Positions 9,879-46,258 of a stretch of DNA of 64,000 bases are shown here, in pieces. Position 1 is the stretch's first letter. Each line of letters opens with the position of its first letter. The DNA is taken from positions 62,001 to 126,000 of the forward strand of contig JBBHKE010001767.1 in assembly GCA_037447655.1 (NCBI GenBank), read 5' to 3'. Source of the DNA: Zygnema cylindricum (lineage: Eukaryota > Streptophyta > Zygnematophyceae > Zygnematales > Zygnemataceae). The position numbers and the translations under genes are program-made. The notes beneath the pieces were generated by a model. The model worked only from the letters and a program-made list of their open reading frames with translations, was not told where the DNA came from and did no database searches.

Positions 9879-9884
9879 TTAATT

Positions 9885-11289
9885 TCTACATAAGGCTCTA
9901 TTGGTAGCGAAGGGATTCACCCAAAAGAAGGGGATTGAGTATGAGGAGACCTTTGCTCCTGTTGTTCGGTTCCCATCAGTAAGGATTCTCCTCAGTCTTG
10001 CAGCAGCGGAAGACATGGAAATTCACCAGATGGACATTAAGATTGCTTTACTTAATGGTGAGTTAGAGGAAGAAATTCTCATGCGACAACCCGAGGGGTT
10101 CATGGAAGAAGGAGAAGAGAGCAAAGTTTGCAGACTCATAAAGTCTTTATATGCACTGAAGCAGACTCCCCGACAATGGAATAAGAAACTAGATGAGTTT
10201 CTCACCGATCTGGGATATATCTGTATCAGCTCTGACCATTCTATCTATATGTTTGAAGATGAGAATGGTGTCATTTTTATTGCAATTCATGTGGATGATC
10301 TGTTTGTGTTAAGTAAGTCTTTGGAGAAGATCTATAGGCTAAAGAAAAATCTTAGGGGCAGATTTGATATGAAGGATTTAGGGGAGGCTAAATATATTTT
10401 GGGGATTCAAATGGAGAGAGATAGGGGGAAGAAGATTATCAAACTTACTCAGAAAAAAACAATAGGAAATATGTTTGAGAAATTCCAGATAGATAATGCT
10501 AACAGTTGTACCACTCCCATGGACTTGAAAAAAGTAAGTGATGGGAGTGTAGAAGGAGGAGTGATGATCTTAGACGATCAGATAAGTCTAGAGGAGAGAG
10601 TGTTTATGAAGTCTATCCCTTATAGACAGGTCGTAGGACGCTTAATCTATTTTATGAACTGTACCAGGCCGGACATAGCGGCAGCAGTTGGAGTACTCAG
10701 TAGGAGTCTTAATGATCCTAGGAAGAGAGATTGGGAGGCAGCCAAGAGAGTCATGAGATATCTGGTTGGAACCAGAGAATTATGGTTGCATTTGGGAGGG
10801 GAGGACACTGATATCACCACTTGGACTGATGCCAGTTGTGGGGATGCACCTATGTGAAGATGCACTTCTGGATATGTTTTGTATGTGGGGGAAGGTGCTT
10901 GTTGTTGGAGCAGTAAGCTGCAAAAGGTGGTTGCTCAGTCTACTATGGAGGTTGAGTATATGGCATCTTGTTCTGCTGTAAAAGAACTAATGTGGGTGAA
11001 GTCATTGTTGCAAGAACTGGGATATATGAAAGAGGGAGTGCATAAAATCTTTTACGATAATCAAGCTGCAATCGCAATTGCAGCCAATCCAAAACACTAT
11101 TTCAAAGCAAAACATATGGACATAAGATTAAGCTTCGTAAGAGAAAAAGTTGTAAATAAAATTTTAAATCTTGTGTATAGACTTGATGAAAAAATGGTGG
11201 TTGACATGATGACCAAACCTGTGCCCTCTCCTAAATTAAAATATTGTCGAGAAAAATATGGGTTGAAAGAAAAGTTAAAATTAGACTAG
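9885..11289 (+). pseudogene. copia pol, reverse transcriptase and RNase H, 5'-truncated, one in-frame stop
   Basis: The frame opens with the RT entry block (LVAKGFTQKKGIEYEETFAP). It then has IHQMDIKIALLNGELEEEI, the catalytic box HVDD (IAIHVDDLFVL, where copia usually has YVDD), DLGEAKYILGIQMERD, and MNCTRPDIAAAVGVLSR. RNase H follows with TSGYVLYVGEGACCWSSKLQ, VAQSTMEVEYMA and YDNQAAIAIAANPKHYFKAK. The frame is continuous from 9901 to 11289 except for one TGA at 10855-10857 between TDASCGDAPM and RCTSGY. Gag, protease and integrase are missing. A polypurine tract and 3' LTR follow at once. It is the best preserved coding part of the family here, but it is not autonomous. Confidence 0.9.
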
Positions 11290-36590: not shown

Positions 36591-36671
36591 TTGCGCTCCT
36601 ACACTCCTGTTCTCCATTCTCCATTCCCGTCAATCTGAATTTCACCTGTCTTGCGTTCAAGTTCTCGCAAA

Positions 36672-38188
36672 ATGAATCCTCCAGCTATCCTCCTCCTCTT
36701 ACCGGCCGTCACTTTGATAGGCGCATTTCTCTCACCTGCCGCTGCCGGCCGTCCTTTTGCCGGCAAATTTGGAGTTCCTGCAGTATTCGTTTTCGGCGAC
36801 TCCACGACGGACGCCGGCAACAACAACTACATCGCGAATCCGATCTACTCTGCCAACATGCCTCCCAACGGCCAGGATTTCATCCCGGCTAGCGGACGGT
36901 TCACAAACGGCAAACTGATCGTCGACTACTTATGTAATGATTACTTATGTTTCCGCACATTTTTAACCCCCCCACGCGTAAAGAACGCACAGTTACAAAT
37001 TTTTAACGCTAAAAATATGCAACATATTTATGTACAGTTCCTGCATGTAGGCCATTCGTACTTAAATATTTCAAACCGTACATTAAACTTATTTTGTTAT
37101 AAACTTTTTTTTTTTTTTCGTCCAGAAAGACTTACGCTCTGCCTTGTGACTGGTGCGCCACGTGTCTCCAGGCGATTATTTGGGGCTGCCCTCGGCTCCC
37201 CCTTTTTTGCAGCCCGGCGCCGATTTCAGAAACGGAATAAATTTTGCCTCGGGAGGCGCCGGAGTGCTGAACGCCACACGTGCGGGCCGTACGATTCCAT
37301 TTGAAGTACAGCAGGACAATTTCAACAAAGTGTACAACAACCCGTCCGCGTACGGCCTCACTTCCGAGGTTATTTTCCCCCTGCCCGCGCCTCTCTCTCC
37401 TTCTCCCTCGCCTCTCTTCCTCGCCCTCTACCTCGCGCTCTCTCAACAATTTTAGAAACGTGTATTTTATATTTTATTTTGCAGACTATCGAAAACGCGC
37501 TATACTATATTTCTATTTCTGCCAATGACTACATTGTGTACATTACGTCGCCGGAAATTCAGGCTGTTGTCCCTTTCGAAGAATACAAAATGCAAGTCGT
37601 TCGAAATATCACCAAAGCCGTAAAGGTAACCCTAAATCATGTCTTCGCGTTTCTATTTTTTTTAGTTGTTTTTTTTTCCGTTTTTTTTTTTTAAGCCAAA
37701 TTTTGTTTTTTATTGCTATTCCTTTAAAGTCCTCAACATTAATAAGGGTTTTCGACATAGAAAACCTAGAAGAAAAGATAACCTTAATGCTCAGTTGCGT
37801 CAAATTTTTCAAGCAGCCGTCGTCAATTTATCAAATTTTAAACCTTTCTTTTGTGCCCGTCGTCGTTTTTCAGAACATGTACGAGAAAGGTGTACGGAAA
37901 TTTGTCGTACAGGGAATCCCCGCCCTGGGATGCGCTCCGGCGATTTCTTTGGCGTTTAATGCGCAACCGACGGGAATCTGCAATCCGTACGTTCAGGGAA
38001 TCATGGAATCTCACAACGCGGCTCTCCAGCCCGCGCTAGCGAAAATTTCGGCGACGTTGCCGCAGATTCGTTTGTCGTTTTCGCTCGCATTTTTTCAAAT
38101 TCAGCTGGGAGCCGCGGAAGATCCTAAGCAATACGGTGCGTACGGAAAAACAATCCTTGCCACAGTACTAGATGTGCCTGAGACATAG
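36672..38188 (+). CDS. GDSL-type esterase/lipase, four visible exons, C-terminal catalytic block missing
   Basis: Exons 36672-36933, 37172-37368, 37485-37625 and 37874-38188 join in phase to 304 residues. Residues 1-25 form a signal peptide (hydrophobic ILLLLPAVTLIGAFL, SPAAA before the cut), so the product is probably secreted. Block I is FVFGDSTTDAGNN with nucleophile Ser44 (GDST rather than GDSL). Block II is GRFTNGKLIVDYL. Block III reads ISISANDY, keeping the Asn (about 167) but with Ser where the oxyanion Gly usually sits. Families of this type hydrolyse esters of lipids, cutin or cell-wall acetyl groups. The family norm is about 350-380 residues ending in block V with the catalytic DxxH. 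Here the frame ends AYGKTILATVLDVPET, and no block V exon is seen before 41 kb. The start ATG fits the signal peptide and TATA position. Confidence 0.8.
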
Positions 38189-38199
38189 TTTTGTAATTT

Positions 38200-41010
38200 T
38201 TGTAGGCGGGGAAAATAGCGTGGACTTGGTTCAATTGGGTGATAAAAATGTGGTAGTTTAAGCGGTAGCCATTATGGGAATACCGTTATTAGTGTTGCCT
38301 TCGCCCGGTTGAATCAAATAAAAAAGTTTAAACGATTAAATATGATGTTAATGAATCGTTTGGACGCTTAAAATTTTCGGGAATTTTAATGATATATTGT
38401 GATTATTATTATTATTTTTATTTGTTTTTCTTTATTATCTTTAATTCTTTACACAAGAATGGAAAAATCAATGCATCCACTAGGAGTTAAAAATAAAACT
38501 TGAATTTCTGGTGATTATATCAAATATGAGATAGGTTTCTCAAATAGGCAAAGCGCGTGGAAATTGCCAAAAAGGCAGTCCTATAGGGAAGGCATCATCG
38601 GCCATGGACATCATTCATGGACAAATGGTTGAAAAGGTAAATGTCTACAAATGTCATATAAAATTATGCGACGTCATTGACAATTTTTGAACAATCGAGT
38701 GCGTCATCACAAATTGTAGACGTTGACAACTGTCATCGGCATTGTCTACGCATACAACCGTCACACACTTAAGTAACATATTTTTTTGTTACACATAGGG
38801 ACACTTGATATCCGAGTCCGCCGGATATGCGCTAAAATACAAAGTAATTCCCATAAGTTTCAAGTAAATGGAGACGCACCCTTATAGCAATACACGGTTG
38901 TACCGCGGACCTTGGTTTGGCGTAAGTTCGTAGGACGTCATTTCAGATTATACATTGACTAACAAACCTTAAAATCGATGGTGCAAACTGAGCTTGAAAC
39001 AGTTGACTTAAACTCACACCAAGTTCGTGCCAGGTGTGTACGAATTTTGTACATCTTTTACCAAGCTTTAGCCTTCACGCTAATTAAAAGTATTGTAGCT
39101 TCCGTCCTTTTCCTTTCTTCTTTAAAGTCGGATATTAAAAACAACAAATTTCATGGAGAAACAATGTAGCATGGTTGACCGGGGTACTTTAAACGAAGAG
39201 TTGTTATTAGTGTTTTGTATCGTAAAATTTCACGCTAAGTTGTTATCACGCTAAATTGTTATCGCGCCAAATTCGATTTTCAATATATTGAACGGTCAGC
39301 GGTCCCGATCTATAGTTTCAGGATATACAAAAATGATTGTGATATATTGCGTGGGAGGTGGTGGTCCCTAAATCTGTATTACGTAAATAATGTACTACAT
39401 TTCGTACGGAAAATACCCCCTTTCCCCGCCTGAAGAGCCGCGCGGCGCGGGGGGTGTCTGGGAGCCTTTTGAAATTTGTTGGGCACACCCAACTTACGGA
39501 GGTATGATAGTTATCAACCCGATAACTGATGGCGATATATGGCATTTTCATTGCGATATTAGCTTTGTCTAGCCTTAGATTAGCCAGACGATATATCGGT
39601 TATTGGTGCGTCAAAAAGGTACCTATCGAATATCAGAAAAAGGCTCTTGATAGACAACTCTACTGTACTGTACTTGTTTTGTACAGTTTGTTTGACCTTT
39701 TACTTTTCTTACCATGCCCGAACCTCGTCTTTCGTGGCATGGCATCACGGGTCAAACTCTTCGAGCGGCAAAACCCACACCTTGGATCAAAAGTGCGAAA
39801 ACGCATGCAAACCCTATACGGCAAAATCCATACCATAGTTCAAAACCATAGTTGTTCAAAACGTATTCTACGCACGATTCGAACACGCGTACAATACGTA
39901 GAAACTGGAGAGGTCGTTTTGAAAAAATCGTAAAAAATGTTAATGTTTTTTTTCCGTACAAATTCGTACATGTTAAAAAAAATTGAATTGAACATGTACC
40001 GCAGTTTGTACGCTCTCCGTTAAATGAGTAGTAAAAATAAATATGCATTGATATTACTAACACACCTCATGCGTGCTTGGAAAATCTACATCAACTGGTT
40101 AAGGACAAGTTCATCAGTGAATAATCGTCCACGTGTACAAGCGCAGGTTTAAATCTTTTAAATGTTTGCTTTTTGTCATAATCATTTTGCTGTGGCGTCG
40201 GTAATGGCGTCTTCCTTGAATTTTCGCATTCAACTGTTGAAGTATTTATGGCGGTTTCTTTTCGAAAATTTGAAGAAGACGCCCGTATACACTTTGAACT
40301 TACGGCGCTCAAATAGTGTGACGCCGCAACGTCTCTATTTGGAAATGTCCGTAGACGTCACGATATTTTCCCTTACATTCCGTGTACATTCTCTTCAGTT
40401 TACTGAACAGAAAGTACAGGAAAATGCTTCGAATCTTTTCCGTACAGCTGCCGTAAATATTCGTACAGTTACCGTAATATGTCTATTGGTTTCCGTAAAC
40501 TTCCAGTTTCAGTTTACAGTAGACTTTTTTTGCGATTTTTTGTAAGTCACGTACAATACGTAGAAACTGGAAAAAAGGAAAAAAACGCGCGTATTGAACA
40601 ACTAGGGTGTGATCCAATCCTCTTGAGATTGTACGCTTTAGAAAAACATGCAAGACTATTGGAGAAAAAAAAAAACATTTTTTTTTTTGAAGTCCTCACA
40701 ACGCATTCCAAAATTCGTTTAAATGAGAAATTTCTTTCATAGAATAGAAAAGCAAAACACCAGGGAGTTAGAGGAGGTGGCAAAAAAGTTGTCAGATTTT
40801 TAATTTCTAGACCGACAATTCATTGTTAGTTGACAAACTATCTAACTGGCAACAAATGATTATTACCCTGATGTTGGTTAAACTTCAAACTGAATATCAT
40901 TTCTTAAGACTTAAAACTACCTTGTATTTACAAAACTGTTTTCTGTTTCTGTTTCCGTTTCCGTTTCCGTTTCCGTAGCAGGAGCAATAAAAACCACTCA
41001 CAACTTTTGG
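38200..41010. other. intergenic stretch with MITE fragment and simple repeats
   Basis: It holds a right-end fragment of a Harbinger-like MITE (about 38640-38881, ending ATGGAGACGCACCC then TTA), a GTTTCC hexamer run (40941-40977), and a repeated ACGTACAATACGTAGAAACT near 39890 and 40548. Many GTAC words occur. Open frames on both strands have no recognised domain. Confidence 0.5.
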
Positions 41011-41148: not shown

Positions 41149-44100
41149 TCAACTTGTCTCTTGTGCTTTATAAGCTAATTCATCGGCTCGACGAATCAAC
41201 TCAGAAATTTTCGGATGTGTCGGTGAATACGGATGTAGTAGTCTGAGTGTTGCCCCGGCATGAGCAAGTTCCTTTATTTCAATCCCAGTTTCTCCCTTTT
41301 TCCAGTCCAAATTCTCTCTCCTCCTGTACAAAACTGGTAGGGCGGTGCCCGAAGGATTCGGTGACGACGCTTGCAAGTATATCCCATTTTTGAGAAGAAG
41401 GTAGTTATTGACTCGAGCATTTACAGCCCCGTTTTGTTTAAACTGAAACAACCTGACATAAGTTGCTTTTATGGACTCCGTGAGTTTTACTACCGCACCA
41501 AGGACTTCTGCCGCTTCCCTCAAAGCATCTTCCTCACCAGCTTGAAAAAAACCATCCCTTTGTATAAGAAGAACATCACCTTCTTTAACTTGTCCTTGTC
41601 GAAAAGATTCCACAAGAAACTTGTGACTGAGTGTTTCTCCCTCCATGCTTTGTATCCGGCTTACATCCGCATCAATTAGTGTCCCATCCGCATTTGAAAA
41701 CTGGATGTATGCCGCCATATTTGTGGTGCCTCTCCCACTTACCTTCTGGCCTCGATGGACGTCAAGTCCCACAATCTTGGTCACATAAGGAAGGCTTGGG
41801 TCAAGAGTGACCACCGTTTTACCCAATTCCGAGAGGAGTTTATGCGAGAGGACTTGCAATATAAGAGGGTTTGATCTCGTGACTGTTGATTCCATGACAA
41901 AGAGGGTCTTCGCTCTCTCGTTATTGGCGGCCATATTGAAAAGAGTCCAGACCTCTGTGATTCCTTTGGGAAATGTGGAAATAGCTATCACGACTCTACC
42001 CCTCTCCTTCGCATTTTTTACGTAATTATTCATGTCCATATGGAACTTGGTCCAGGTGGCATCTACGCCCAATGAAATTACATGACTATCTACAATCTCT
42101 ACTGACTCTATGTCCCCTTTGTAACGCTCTAGTTCTTTCACAAAGCTTTTCGCCATTGGCATCGCAGACCTTTCAAGTCCTTCCTCTTCGAAACGTTTGC
42201 AGAGGTATAGGATGGAAAGCTTGAGGTTGAAAGGTTTGTCACTTCCTCGATCATATACTCCCTTCAGAACTGCTTCGTTCCTGGCTGACCAAGGCTTCTC
42301 AGCACTCACTTTACTGCCATTGCCATACACCAAATACTGATTTGACAGATCAACATATCCAAAACAGTCTTTGTCCCACGAAGAATTCAATGGAAAAGCC
42401 CGAACAATCTTTTTCTTAGATATGTATTCTGCAAGTTTTGCAGTCAGTTGATACCGATTATTTGCAGACAGTTTTGCCTTGGACTGCGAATGTCCATAGG
42501 GCACTTGCATTCGCTCGAAAAAAAGGGAATTTTTGGACGAAACGGAAATGAACAACGACCGTGCCGGATAGTTGTATGGAGCGCTCTTGCCACGGTGCCG
42601 AACTCGGACAACATAGTCATCACCCTTTTTCGACATTTGCCAAGCTTGTTTTAAAGCCGGTGTTGTAGCCTGCTTAAATCCCTGTTTTATGCTTTGTTCC
42701 GTCATGGTAACAGGATTGCCCGCTATCTCACCTGATAACCAATCGAGATTCCAACAACCAACTTGCAACCCATCCATGTCAAAAGTCTTATTACCCCTTT
42801 CTTTTATAAACTCCTGTAAGGACTTTCTGAACAAAATTTTAGAATGCGTTCCGATGACAATCCCGGGTCGATTCCTATAATCCACTATTCCTTGAAGAGC
42901 AGCATAACGAGCCACTGTTAAATCAATTTGCTTCTGATCTTTCATCACCAAAACTTGTGTAACATGATCTTTCCAACCTGGCAACTGTTCTATAAAAATG
43001 GCAGTCAACATTGCCTTAACATTTGGACATGGCAAGACCTCGATTCCTGGCCTTTGTTCGCAGAATCGGATGCTCTCCACTAACCGTAGAAGTAAAGCTG
43101 TTGCACTGTCTCCCTCAGAATAACTATCTAAAATAGCCAGGACTGTTGCTTCTGGGAGAGGCTCTTCTGAGGACATATAGACAAGCTTCCTATGAAACCG
43201 ATCAAACAACCAGGAAAGATTGGTTCGTTGTCTTAGAATAAATGCGGCAGGATTTGCCAACTCGACAACCCCGCCTGATATTCCCGAGGGGTTCACAATC
43301 ACATCGTAGTAGTGGTACCGCATAGGTTCGAAAAACTCTGTCAAAAAAAAAAGGATGCATACATAAGTATCATTGGCCTCGCCTGCTAAACTGCCAAGGT
43401 CACACACTTATATGTAAGAATTGAGTGAAATTTGGTGACCATAAATGTTTTCAGCAGCACCGTTCAACGGAAAGAAAGCTTGAAATGTAAGTCTTGCGAA
43501 TGAAAATTTCATGGTTGGACTGGAAAGTCGCCTCTGAAAAATTTGACCCAAGGGCATAGTGAAATAAAATCGTTCCTGTTCCTCTCCTCCACCAACGAAT
43601 AATTGTGGGAGTGAATGCTGAAACGCTAAAAAAAAACTGCTTTATTTCAAGAGGAGCTTGGAGCAATTTCACACCACCAGCCATCAAAGTCGAGGATCAG
43701 TGTGATTCCTTAATACTCAGCAACTGTGGACAATTTGGACACATATTTCATGACATATTCGCGTTATTCAATAGCAACAATGAGGAAACCTTTGATTTGC
43801 ATTTTTTATAAAATTGAACTCCTCAACTACAAAAAAGTTAAATGGTTCACAAGATGCACACCGCCAAGAAAGGGCAAAGCAATCAGGACACCGGGGGCAC
43901 AAATTTTCCACTGAAGCATGTTTATGGTAGCAACTTATTGAATTTAAGAGCAGTAAACAAATAGTCTTAGCGATGCAAGAAAGTTTAAAATCAACATTTG
44001 GAGATATTGTGTAGTACAATTAACAAGTCAAGTTTAACTTCTGATCTGACTTACTCTCCTCGATGGGATAGACATTTGTTCCGACAGTGGACGTCACTTG

Positions 44101-44177
44101 AGTGGTTAACATCCTCGTGTTTTTTGCTTCAAGAATCACTTCATGAAAAGACCTGAATGCACCATGACAGTGGTTCC
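41149..44177 (-). CDS. Argonaute/PIWI-family protein resembling long prokaryotic-type Argonautes, 5' end incomplete
   Basis: The main exon (43337 to 41149) encodes N, PAZ-like, MID and PIWI regions. It is preceded by an exon at 44177-44055 (acceptor TGTAG, donor GTAAGT). The one-base overhang joins the main exon after its T-rich tract and ACAG acceptor. The junction gives TNVYPIEEK then FFEPMRYHYYDV, fitting the Argonaute N domain (TN.F.v .. YHYDV). In the open frame that begins at 43407, PIWI starts near residue 541 with IVGLDVHRG (Asp549). Glutamates follow in SMEGE (589/591), then QRDGFF (Asp618), GTALPVLYRRR, and RRADELAY (Asp742). This gives a D-E-D-D set, so slicing may be retained. Canonical plant AGOs end with a catalytic His and an AFRARYY-type tail, which is absent. 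Argonautes bind guide nucleic acids and cut matching targets. Further 5' exons are not resolved. Prokaryotic affinity is inference from motifs. Confidence 0.8.
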
Positions 44178-46258
44178 CTACATGAGAAAATGACAAAGTT
44201 ACGGCAACATTTGACTTTCCAATCACCACTAGTGTGAGTATCCTTCAACTGCAATCTACACCGTGAATCCCTATTAGAGTAAAGAAATTGCTCGCGTGGG
44301 GTTTACATTTGTCTTAGTGATTCTAATTCAGTTCCAATTGGCGTGGCTGATTTAAAACCGTTAAAAGAATTAGCGTTATATAAAAAAAAACAATTAGTGT
44401 TATTAACACTCTTTTGTGGTCAGAGGGCCGAAAAACGGCATCATGTTAGTGTTATTAATGTCGATAGCGATTCACGGTGCACCGCACACATCTCTGGGGG
44501 GACACAAAGAATTCAGTTAATACCAGCCGCATAAACCCTGGAAGATGACTTAACCCAACACTCCCAAACCAGTTGGAATAATTAAGAGTGTGTATTCTTA
44601 ACGAATCACACTACTTGAAACTCGGGATGAAAACAAGACAGTTATGGAGAAAACTTGAGATCAACTTTGTTCTTGAGCCCTTGAAGGTTTAAGGTTACAG
44701 AGTATTCCCACAGGTGATGCAAGCATACTGCCCATTGCTATTAGTGTGAAGGACATATTAATGTACAAGCGGAATGATAAGTAAAATACTCATTTAGTGT
44801 AGGGAGATGTGGCGATTTTTACTCCACTCCCTTACATATAGAGTTATTAATAGTATTTTGAGATTCGTGGCCACAAAAAGTCGCCACCGAATTAGTGTTA
44901 TTAACACTAATGACGATGGACAGTGTCCTTTTTTAAGAGTTTGGGTGTACCATTTTTTACGGTTCCTCATTGTCATACTGGAGAGGGAATAATGCTCAGA
45001 GAGGATATAATGCCACTTTATTCATTATCCACGTGCTTAGAGCACACAATTTACAAATAGCAATTGATGTAATGTCAATGGTTCAAAATTTCGACACATT
45101 TTTACATCTTTCCATCAGTACAGCAAATTCCTGACAAGGAAAACAATGAACACGGCCGAGAATGACATCATTTTAACCACAATTTTCTGATTAAATGGGC
45201 GAGGTCTGTAATTTTGTGAAGGATAAAAAAATAAATTTAATTTCATGTGCATATAATCTCTTAAATCCCAAAGCATAAAGAGTTGTAAGTAACGACAACA
45301 ATACCGTATTCTTTGTCAAAAAGTTCCGGCCTTGTAAAACATGTTGATTTAAAAATCCAAAAAAAAAGGATGTACCTTTGATATATTTTTCTTACCATAT
45401 TGCGTCTGAAGGGGGGAGGGAAACATAAACAAACATTTTCCAAACAACGGTTTAGGGTACAAGTGAAATCTTCAAAGTATCCACACCAAGAGACAAAATC
45501 CACCATTTCCAGGTAGGTGACAAAAAAAAAACAGCTAAAACTGCAGCAAATTTAAACTCGTAAAAGGAACAACAGGAAAAACTGCAACTTACTGCTCAAA
45601 AAGATTTAAAACAGCCAAATGCAATGGTATTATTACCTTCCAGATGAAGGAAAACGGGGAGAAGACATCAGCGTTCTACTACAGTGAATGAAAGAAGCCA
45701 CTTTTTCCGTCCTCTTCTTCGACTGTGGCCATAGGTTTGGCAATAATACTGCCTGCAGTAATCTGCCATATTGCTGTACAGCAGAGCGCCTGAATAACAT
45801 CTACAAGACTCCAGCTGCAAAAAGGACTTGAATTGGATTACTGTGCTTCCGCACATCACTTTATGCTTTTCTATTTCCGTACAGTTATAAGGGTACGAAT
45901 CAGTTCAAAAGTAGGTGAAAGTAGGCCCATACAATATGCCTACTGTACGCAAAACATACAATATGGCCTTAAGAGTTAAGACCCATATTGTATTGGTCGC
46001 AAAATGAAAAATAATCATAGTTGTTCACGGCGATTAGTGCGAACGTACCGTACGTGACGAATTATACGTAACAAACGCATTGAACCTTTTGATCAAATCG
46101 CAAAAAATCGTTAATGAATTTCCTTCCGTACTATTCCGTAGAGCGGAACCGAAAGTCCGAAACGTAGCCAATGAGGATCATCCTTAAGAGAGTTTGCACT
46201 TGTGGAAGGCAGTGCAGCAGTAAATAGGGTTTCTAGGGTTAGGAATTTAGGATCATTT

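Follow-up and report, generated by a model that had tools for sequence, protein, structure and literature searches.

A 752-aa open frame at 43407-41149 on the minus strand of a 64-kb stretch of DNA (hereafter the window; positions 62001-126000 of contig C1323, in a genome of 352,776,454 bases and 2689 contigs) raises the question of whether a eukaryote has taken up an Argonaute of the prokaryotic kind and, if so, what such a protein would do there. DNA-cutting long-A Argonautes are known as bacterial and archaeal proteins that act as a defense. The Argonautes known from eukaryotes bind small RNAs and recognize RNA, according to part of PMC6299218, and in part of PMC7994812, which surveys the small-RNA genes of 34 green species, the AGO clades described are canonical. 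Our searches of the open-licence literature turned up no eukaryote described as having a prokaryotic-type Argonaute. The protein family is known; what is new here is the host, the form of the gene and the guide pocket.

Gene structure and a presumed algal relative

We found that the gene runs from 45800 to 41149 on the minus strand and has three exons with GT-AG borders, as placed by tblastn with a related protein, P0001, and by splice sites. The spliced coding sequence is 2451 nt, which gives 816 aa and a stop codon, and an in-frame TAG (45803-45801) lies immediately 5' of the ATG (Table 1). Shuffling the window 20 times by mononucleotide gave no stop-to-stop frame longer than 190 aa. An earlier note on this DNA had read GLDVH, SMEGE, QRDGFF and RRADELAY in one long frame, and all of them are found in the 752-aa open frame. 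The note had also taken this long frame as coding and the gene as 41149-44177; most of the frame is indeed coding and the gene is present there, but the first 23 residues of the frame belong to intron 2 and the proposed span misses the 5' exon. At the second junction, exon 2 ends in GAGGAGA followed by gtaagt, exon 3 starts after gacag with AGTTTTTC, and P0001 is continuous across the join (YPIEEKFLETMRYHYYDV). The splice sites and P0001, which reads straight through, therefore bear out the proposed joining of TNVYPIEEK to FFEPMRYHYYDV. That a prokaryotic-type Argonaute gene carries introns here was also correct, and both are GT-AG introns of the spliceosomal type.

Table 1. Positions in the window of the exons, introns and protein regions of the Argonaute gene.
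Feature	Position	Strand	Description and evidence
Exon 1	45637..45800	-	ATG 45800-45798; basic N-terminal extension, residues 1-55; P0001 tblastn, splice sites, translation
Intron 1	44153..45636	-	1484 nt, GT..AG
Exon 2	44055..44152	-	98 nt; P0001 tblastn, splice sites
Intron 2	43338..44054	-	717 nt, GT..AG; contains the first 23 codons of the earlier long frame
Exon 3	41149..43337	-	2189 nt; remaining protein and stop codon; open frame, P0001 alignment
PAZ-like region	42565..42870	-	Residues about 244-345, approximate bounds; start of the hhalign match, best-confidence part of the model
MID region	41800..42099	-	Residues about 501-600, approximate bounds; T565 (41907-41905), E591 (41829-41827)
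PIWI domain	41152..41799	-	Residues about 601-816; PADLOC, PDB 9iad, alignment and fold matches
Tetrad codons	D613 41763-41761, E655 41637-41635, D682 41556-41554, D806 41184-41182	-	

P0001 was the single relative found when we searched a database of 5.8 billion proteins, from which 7996 candidates were scored. It is 815 aa long, is 82% identical to the window protein over 97% of the query and comes from three contigs of at most 3095 bases, with an 'lgn' label that we take to denote assembled public reads. Because P0001 is unbroken across both introns of the window gene, we take it to be a spliced transcript, presumably from a related alga. Identity between the window protein and P0001 is 106/116 in the PIWI core, 80/100 in MID, 77/102 in the PAZ-like region and 39/54 in the N-terminal extension; the nuclease core is thus the part best kept between the two algal proteins, which suggests that selection maintains it. 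A protein search with a seven-sequence alignment failed to return even the cyanobacterial proteins, so the protein searches say little about absence. In the 352.8-Mb genome, a protein search returned one place, indicating at least one copy of this Argonaute gene.

The same genome also encodes canonical AGO. The PIWI domain of the host AGO gives 326 bits with Arabidopsis AGO10 and 270 bits with human AGO2 and, being nearer to AGO10, points to a plant-lineage host; the prokaryotic-type gene is most likely a nuclear gene of such an organism, a green alga. Canonical AGO PIWI exons are found on contigs C706, C2330 and C1532 (L001-L008 and L051-L053); those on C706 are plant-like, and the matches on C2330 have stops or intron edges.

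Relationship to cyanobacterial Argonautes

The earlier note had called the protein a prokaryotic-style Argonaute, and both model and profile matches agree, with long-A pAgos as the type. Four PADLOC pAgo models match the window protein, the best being PDLC02396 (E 6e-32) and the next PDLC02380 (E 3e-26); PDLC02380 is the best model for the cyanobacterial pAgos L009 (Nostoc), L019 (Tychonema) and L042, and PDLC02396 is the best model for L031. The best PDB sequence match is 9iad (E 4e-14), an entry that a fold search identifies as Chroococcidiopsis thermalis Argonaute. The model alignments contain cyanobacterial rows, from which the fold matches are not independent. Pfam Piwi has no match to the window protein up to E 1, yet it does detect exons of the canonical AGO of the same genome (E 2e-21). 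No Pfam PAZ model matched the window protein, and the PAZ, MID and PIWI names given to its regions are our own.

To compare families, we assembled a panel in which 31 pAgos are cyanobacterial and 11 are not. Ten of the cyanobacterial proteins are the Nostoc plasmid pAgo and nine chosen by likeness to it, and 21 were chosen by their match to a profile built from both algal proteins, from 21 of the 386 cyanobacterial genomes searched; the 11 others come from plasmid records and were picked because they resemble 9iad or a haloarchaeal pAgo. The algal profile includes all 31 cyanobacterial pAgos and none of the 11 others, in a panel that is not neutral, as 21 of the 31 cyanobacterial rows had been selected by the same match and the genome search was one of cyanobacteria. 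When we aligned the algal profile with hhalign to 26 cyanobacterial sequences, we found a match with a probability of 98.7 and E 1.7e-16 over 511 columns (residues 244-812). The probability is 96.0 for the group of L031, L045 and L050, 65.7 for haloarchaea with Pontibacillus, 31.5 for Thermus with Hydrogenophilus, 0.9 for one Rhizobium pAgo, 0.2 for one Aminobacter pAgo and 0.1 for the PIWI domain of canonical AGO. In a control with these thin profiles, cyanobacterial pAgos compared with AGO likewise reached no more than 0.3. The lack of an AGO match is therefore weak evidence by itself, and it is the positive match to cyanobacteria that counts. By blastp within a set of seven sequences, P0001 also has weak matches to two pAgos of haloarchaea (E 4e-4 and 8e-4).

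In a 45-part PIWI tree, from which L034 (a duplicate) and L038 (truncated) were left out, the algal pair has a stem 3.86 changes per column long and groups with cyanobacteria and the Aquifex aeolicus protein AaAgo with support of 97/88. The earlier note had proposed such a tree as a check, and its answer is mixed: cyanobacteria and alga alone receive 47/75, and in an AU test on PIWI only, where long branches are involved, a clade of the alga with canonical AGO is not rejected (p = 0.147). The note's view that the protein lies outside the plant AGO clades is supported by sequence, given the silent Pfam model and the hhalign value for AGO, though the AU test does not formally reject an AGO clade.

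The nearest relatives found are cyanobacterial pAgos of the SeAgo (Synechococcus elongatus) and CtAgo (C. thermalis, 9iad) kind; these long-A proteins and the algal protein share a colinear PAZ-MID-PIWI match and a D-E-D-D tetrad, although they are only about 20-22% identical and the algal gene differs in having introns and an N-terminal extension. AaAgo (1yvu/2nub) is a far weaker sequence match than the cyanobacterial pAgos. Canonical plant AGO, as represented by the host copy on C706 and by Arabidopsis AGO10, belongs to the same superfamily and has an RNase H-like PIWI domain. A donor closer than those found may exist in non-cyanobacterial phyla. Taken together, these data make it very probable that the gene encodes a cyanobacterial-type long-A pAgo in a eukaryote.

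Catalytic tetrad and guide pocket

To locate the catalytic residues and the guide pocket, we used an alignment with 30 cyanobacterial sequences, from which L034 was omitted. All 30 cyanobacterial rows have D, E and D at the positions of D613, E655 and D682; at D806, 27 rows have D, two have H and one, which is truncated, has a gap. Both algal proteins keep all four positions. The earlier note had proposed D549, Glu589/591, D618 and D742, which in spliced numbering are D613, E655, D682 and D806, except that E589 (E653) is not the aligned catalytic Glu: the Glu in 'GET', E655, is E in 30/30 rows, while the E653 column is E in 22, D in four and P in four. The D-E-D-D set that the note had named is, at the level of sequence, complete. 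Canonical eukaryotic AGO proteins typically have a His as their fourth catalytic residue and finish in a RARCY-type end. The host canonical AGO follows the pattern FRDG..HYHV..AARARCY, whereas the algal pAgo ends in RRADELAYKAQETS with Asp at the fourth position. Judging from the kept tetrad, the protein is probably, though not assuredly, an active nuclease.

In contrast to the tetrad, the guide pocket differs between the algal proteins and the cyanobacterial pAgos. The C-terminal end of pAgos takes part in holding the 5' phosphate of the guide. In both algal proteins, the tail after D806 has 10 residues as compared to 23 or 24 in the 29 untruncated cyanobacterial rows, which leaves it 13-14 residues shorter; the MID Gln, which is Q in 30/30 cyanobacterial rows, is T565, and the MID Lys, which is K in 30/30, is E591 (spliced numbering). 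According to part of PMC6299218, known pAgos use this Gln and Lys to anchor the guide 5' phosphate, the 5'-phosphate MID motif is kept in about 80% of long pAgos and altered in about a fifth, and some of those with an altered pocket bind 5'-OH guides. With the MID Gln, the Lys and the C-terminal tail lost, guide loading may be gone in the algal proteins. Their likeness to pAgos with a changed pocket (MID* and MID-OH, for example MpAgo of Marinitoga) lies in the replaced 5'-phosphate residues. In our alignment, the Natrinema and Halocatena pAgos are also without the MID Lys. Two plasmid-borne pAgos, L057 of Rhizobium and L059 of Deinococcus, have all tetrad positions aligned and are missing both the MID Gln and the MID Lys.

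The structure models were poor, with a pLDDT of 38.2 at full length and 42.9 for MID-PIWI, and useful confidence was found only in the PAZ-like region (best part about 260-350) and the RNase H core.

N-terminal extension and neighborhood of the gene

The first 50 residues contain nine basic residues and one acidic residue in the window protein and eight and none in P0001. This N-terminal extension, basic in both algal proteins, is absent from the nine aligned cyanobacterial rows. As a presequence, however, it does not stand out within its own protein: among the other 18-residue windows, 12% reach its best helical moment, and other 50-residue windows carry as high a net charge (+8). From composition and alignment, a plastid or mitochondrial presequence is possible, and we put an organelle location at slightly under an even chance.

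A PD-(D/E)XK nuclease gene lies just upstream of the pAgo gene in 9/9 cyanobacterial loci (L014-L022), as a tight two-gene unit whose nucleases are 65-86% identical to the Nostoc one. In contrast, we found no PD-(D/E)XK nuclease gene in the 64-kb window (best E 0.34). In S. elongatus, a Cas4-like nuclease is among the proteins besides SeAgo that lower transfer or maintenance of the plasmid RSF1010, as part of PMC10653904 describes. A PD-(D/E)XK nuclease gene stands upstream of the Rhizobium pAgo L057 too.

Around the algal gene, we observed a GDSL-lipase-like exon at 36639-37304 on the plus strand (E 5e-4; 20.8 bits, below the Pfam cut-off of 23.6), perhaps with a second exon at 37529-38188 (+), which together look like an intron-containing gene about 4 kb from the Argonaute gene. 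A Copia-type reverse transcriptase lies at 9883-10857 (+; RVT_2, E 9e-64), and the frames adjacent to it resemble pieces of retroelements. A TTTCCG tandem array of 6.2 copies (40940-40976) is found just 3' of the Argonaute stop codon. No Rfam family matched in the window. Pattern-limited scans of viral contigs, with queries that were the algal protein or led by cyanobacterial pAgos, found no relative; plasmids gave no match with the algal protein as query, phages queried with only the Nostoc protein gave one weak record, and a scan of genome contigs with a Nostoc-algal alignment found nothing.

Proposed origin and possible function

We propose that the gene would have had a prokaryotic donor, in all likelihood a cyanobacterium or a source common to cyanobacteria. 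Once captured, it would have acquired two introns and, at the N terminus, a basic extension, and it would be expressed and under selection. The protein would be carried into the plastid or the mitochondrion, where its PIWI domain would cut single-stranded or replicating organelle DNA in the manner of SeAgo in bacteria. With the altered pocket and tail, the guide would be anchored differently (by a 5'-OH, or mainly by its 3' end via PAZ), or the enzyme would be less dependent on guides. Organelles hold bacterial-type DNA. Kinship with SeAgo together with the kept tetrad leads us to expect a DNA nuclease, the presequence leads us to expect an organelle, and the change in the pocket leads us to expect unusual or fewer guides; we infer in this way the donor, the organelle, the DNA target and the use of guides. 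According to part of PMC10653904, SeAgo works with DNA guides that it draws from the genome, acts preferentially on single-stranded DNA, also has an activity on double strands that needs no guide, and limits foreign plasmids. In E. coli, SeAgo is loaded from sites where replication ends and helps under gyrase block, but no such help is seen in its native host, as part of PMC10269773 describes. Read loosely, as a captured pAgo that was kept as a nuclease, the proposal has an even chance of being right. DNA-directed work in an organelle is more doubtful, and we hold only tentatively the full version, in which a nuclear-encoded, organelle-imported and active pAgo with a rebuilt guide-end pocket cuts organelle DNA as a defense or as an aid to replication.

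The same changes in the pocket could instead mark a guide-independent descendant, in which the PIWI nuclease was kept, 5'-phosphorylated guides are not loaded and the enzyme acts, in the metabolism of DNA or RNA, as a nuclease selective for structures or for single strands. Replacement of the MID Gln by Thr and of the Lys by Glu, along with the shortened tail, in both algal proteins is what such a descendant would have; however, the PAZ-like region (77/102) and MID (80/100) are still kept between the two proteins as if they were used, and altered pockets are found in other long pAgos, among them those that bind 5'-OH guides (PMC6299218, in part). We regard guide independence as a possible outcome and not a probable one. 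Somewhat unlikely in our judgment is a cytosolic or nuclear factor that would use DNA or RNA guides in defense or silencing against viruses, transposons or transcripts. The weak evidence for a presequence would agree with such a location, and the Copia elements of the genome could be targets, but both algal proteins have the basic N-terminal extension that the nine cyanobacterial rows lack.

Two further explanations concern what the gene is rather than what it does. A divergent eukaryotic AGO or PIWI protein that has grown to look prokaryotic would be compatible with the AU result for a clade with canonical AGO (p = 0.147), and the low control value makes the missing hhalign match to AGO a weak objection. 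Against it stand the 511-column match to cyanobacterial pAgos, the silence of Pfam Piwi on a protein from a genome whose own AGO exons match that model at 2e-21, the Asp in place of His at the fourth position and the missing RARCY-type end. By sequence, through Pfam Piwi and hhalign, we ruled out a canonical AGO or PIWI identity, although the AU test on PIWI alone falls short of significance, and such a divergent AGO is highly improbable. That the closest known relatives are bacterial might also suggest contamination, or an insertion that has decayed and lost its function. However, the gene has two GT-AG introns whose joins match P0001, it shares the window with a Copia reverse transcriptase and a GDSL-lipase-like exon, it has 816 codons without a stop, and the tetrad is kept in both algal proteins. 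A contaminant or dead gene is ruled out by the introns, P0001, the neighbors and the open frame, and we give this explanation almost no weight.

The reading that we prefer remains a captured pAgo kept as a nuclease. If the gene is transcribed and selected, a cyanobacterial-type defense enzyme can enter eukaryotes and persist there, in this case in a relative of land plants. The algal protein would, if our proposal is true, be a natural example of an Argonaute whose guide pocket has been altered, and the policing of organelle DNA by an Argonaute would become testable.
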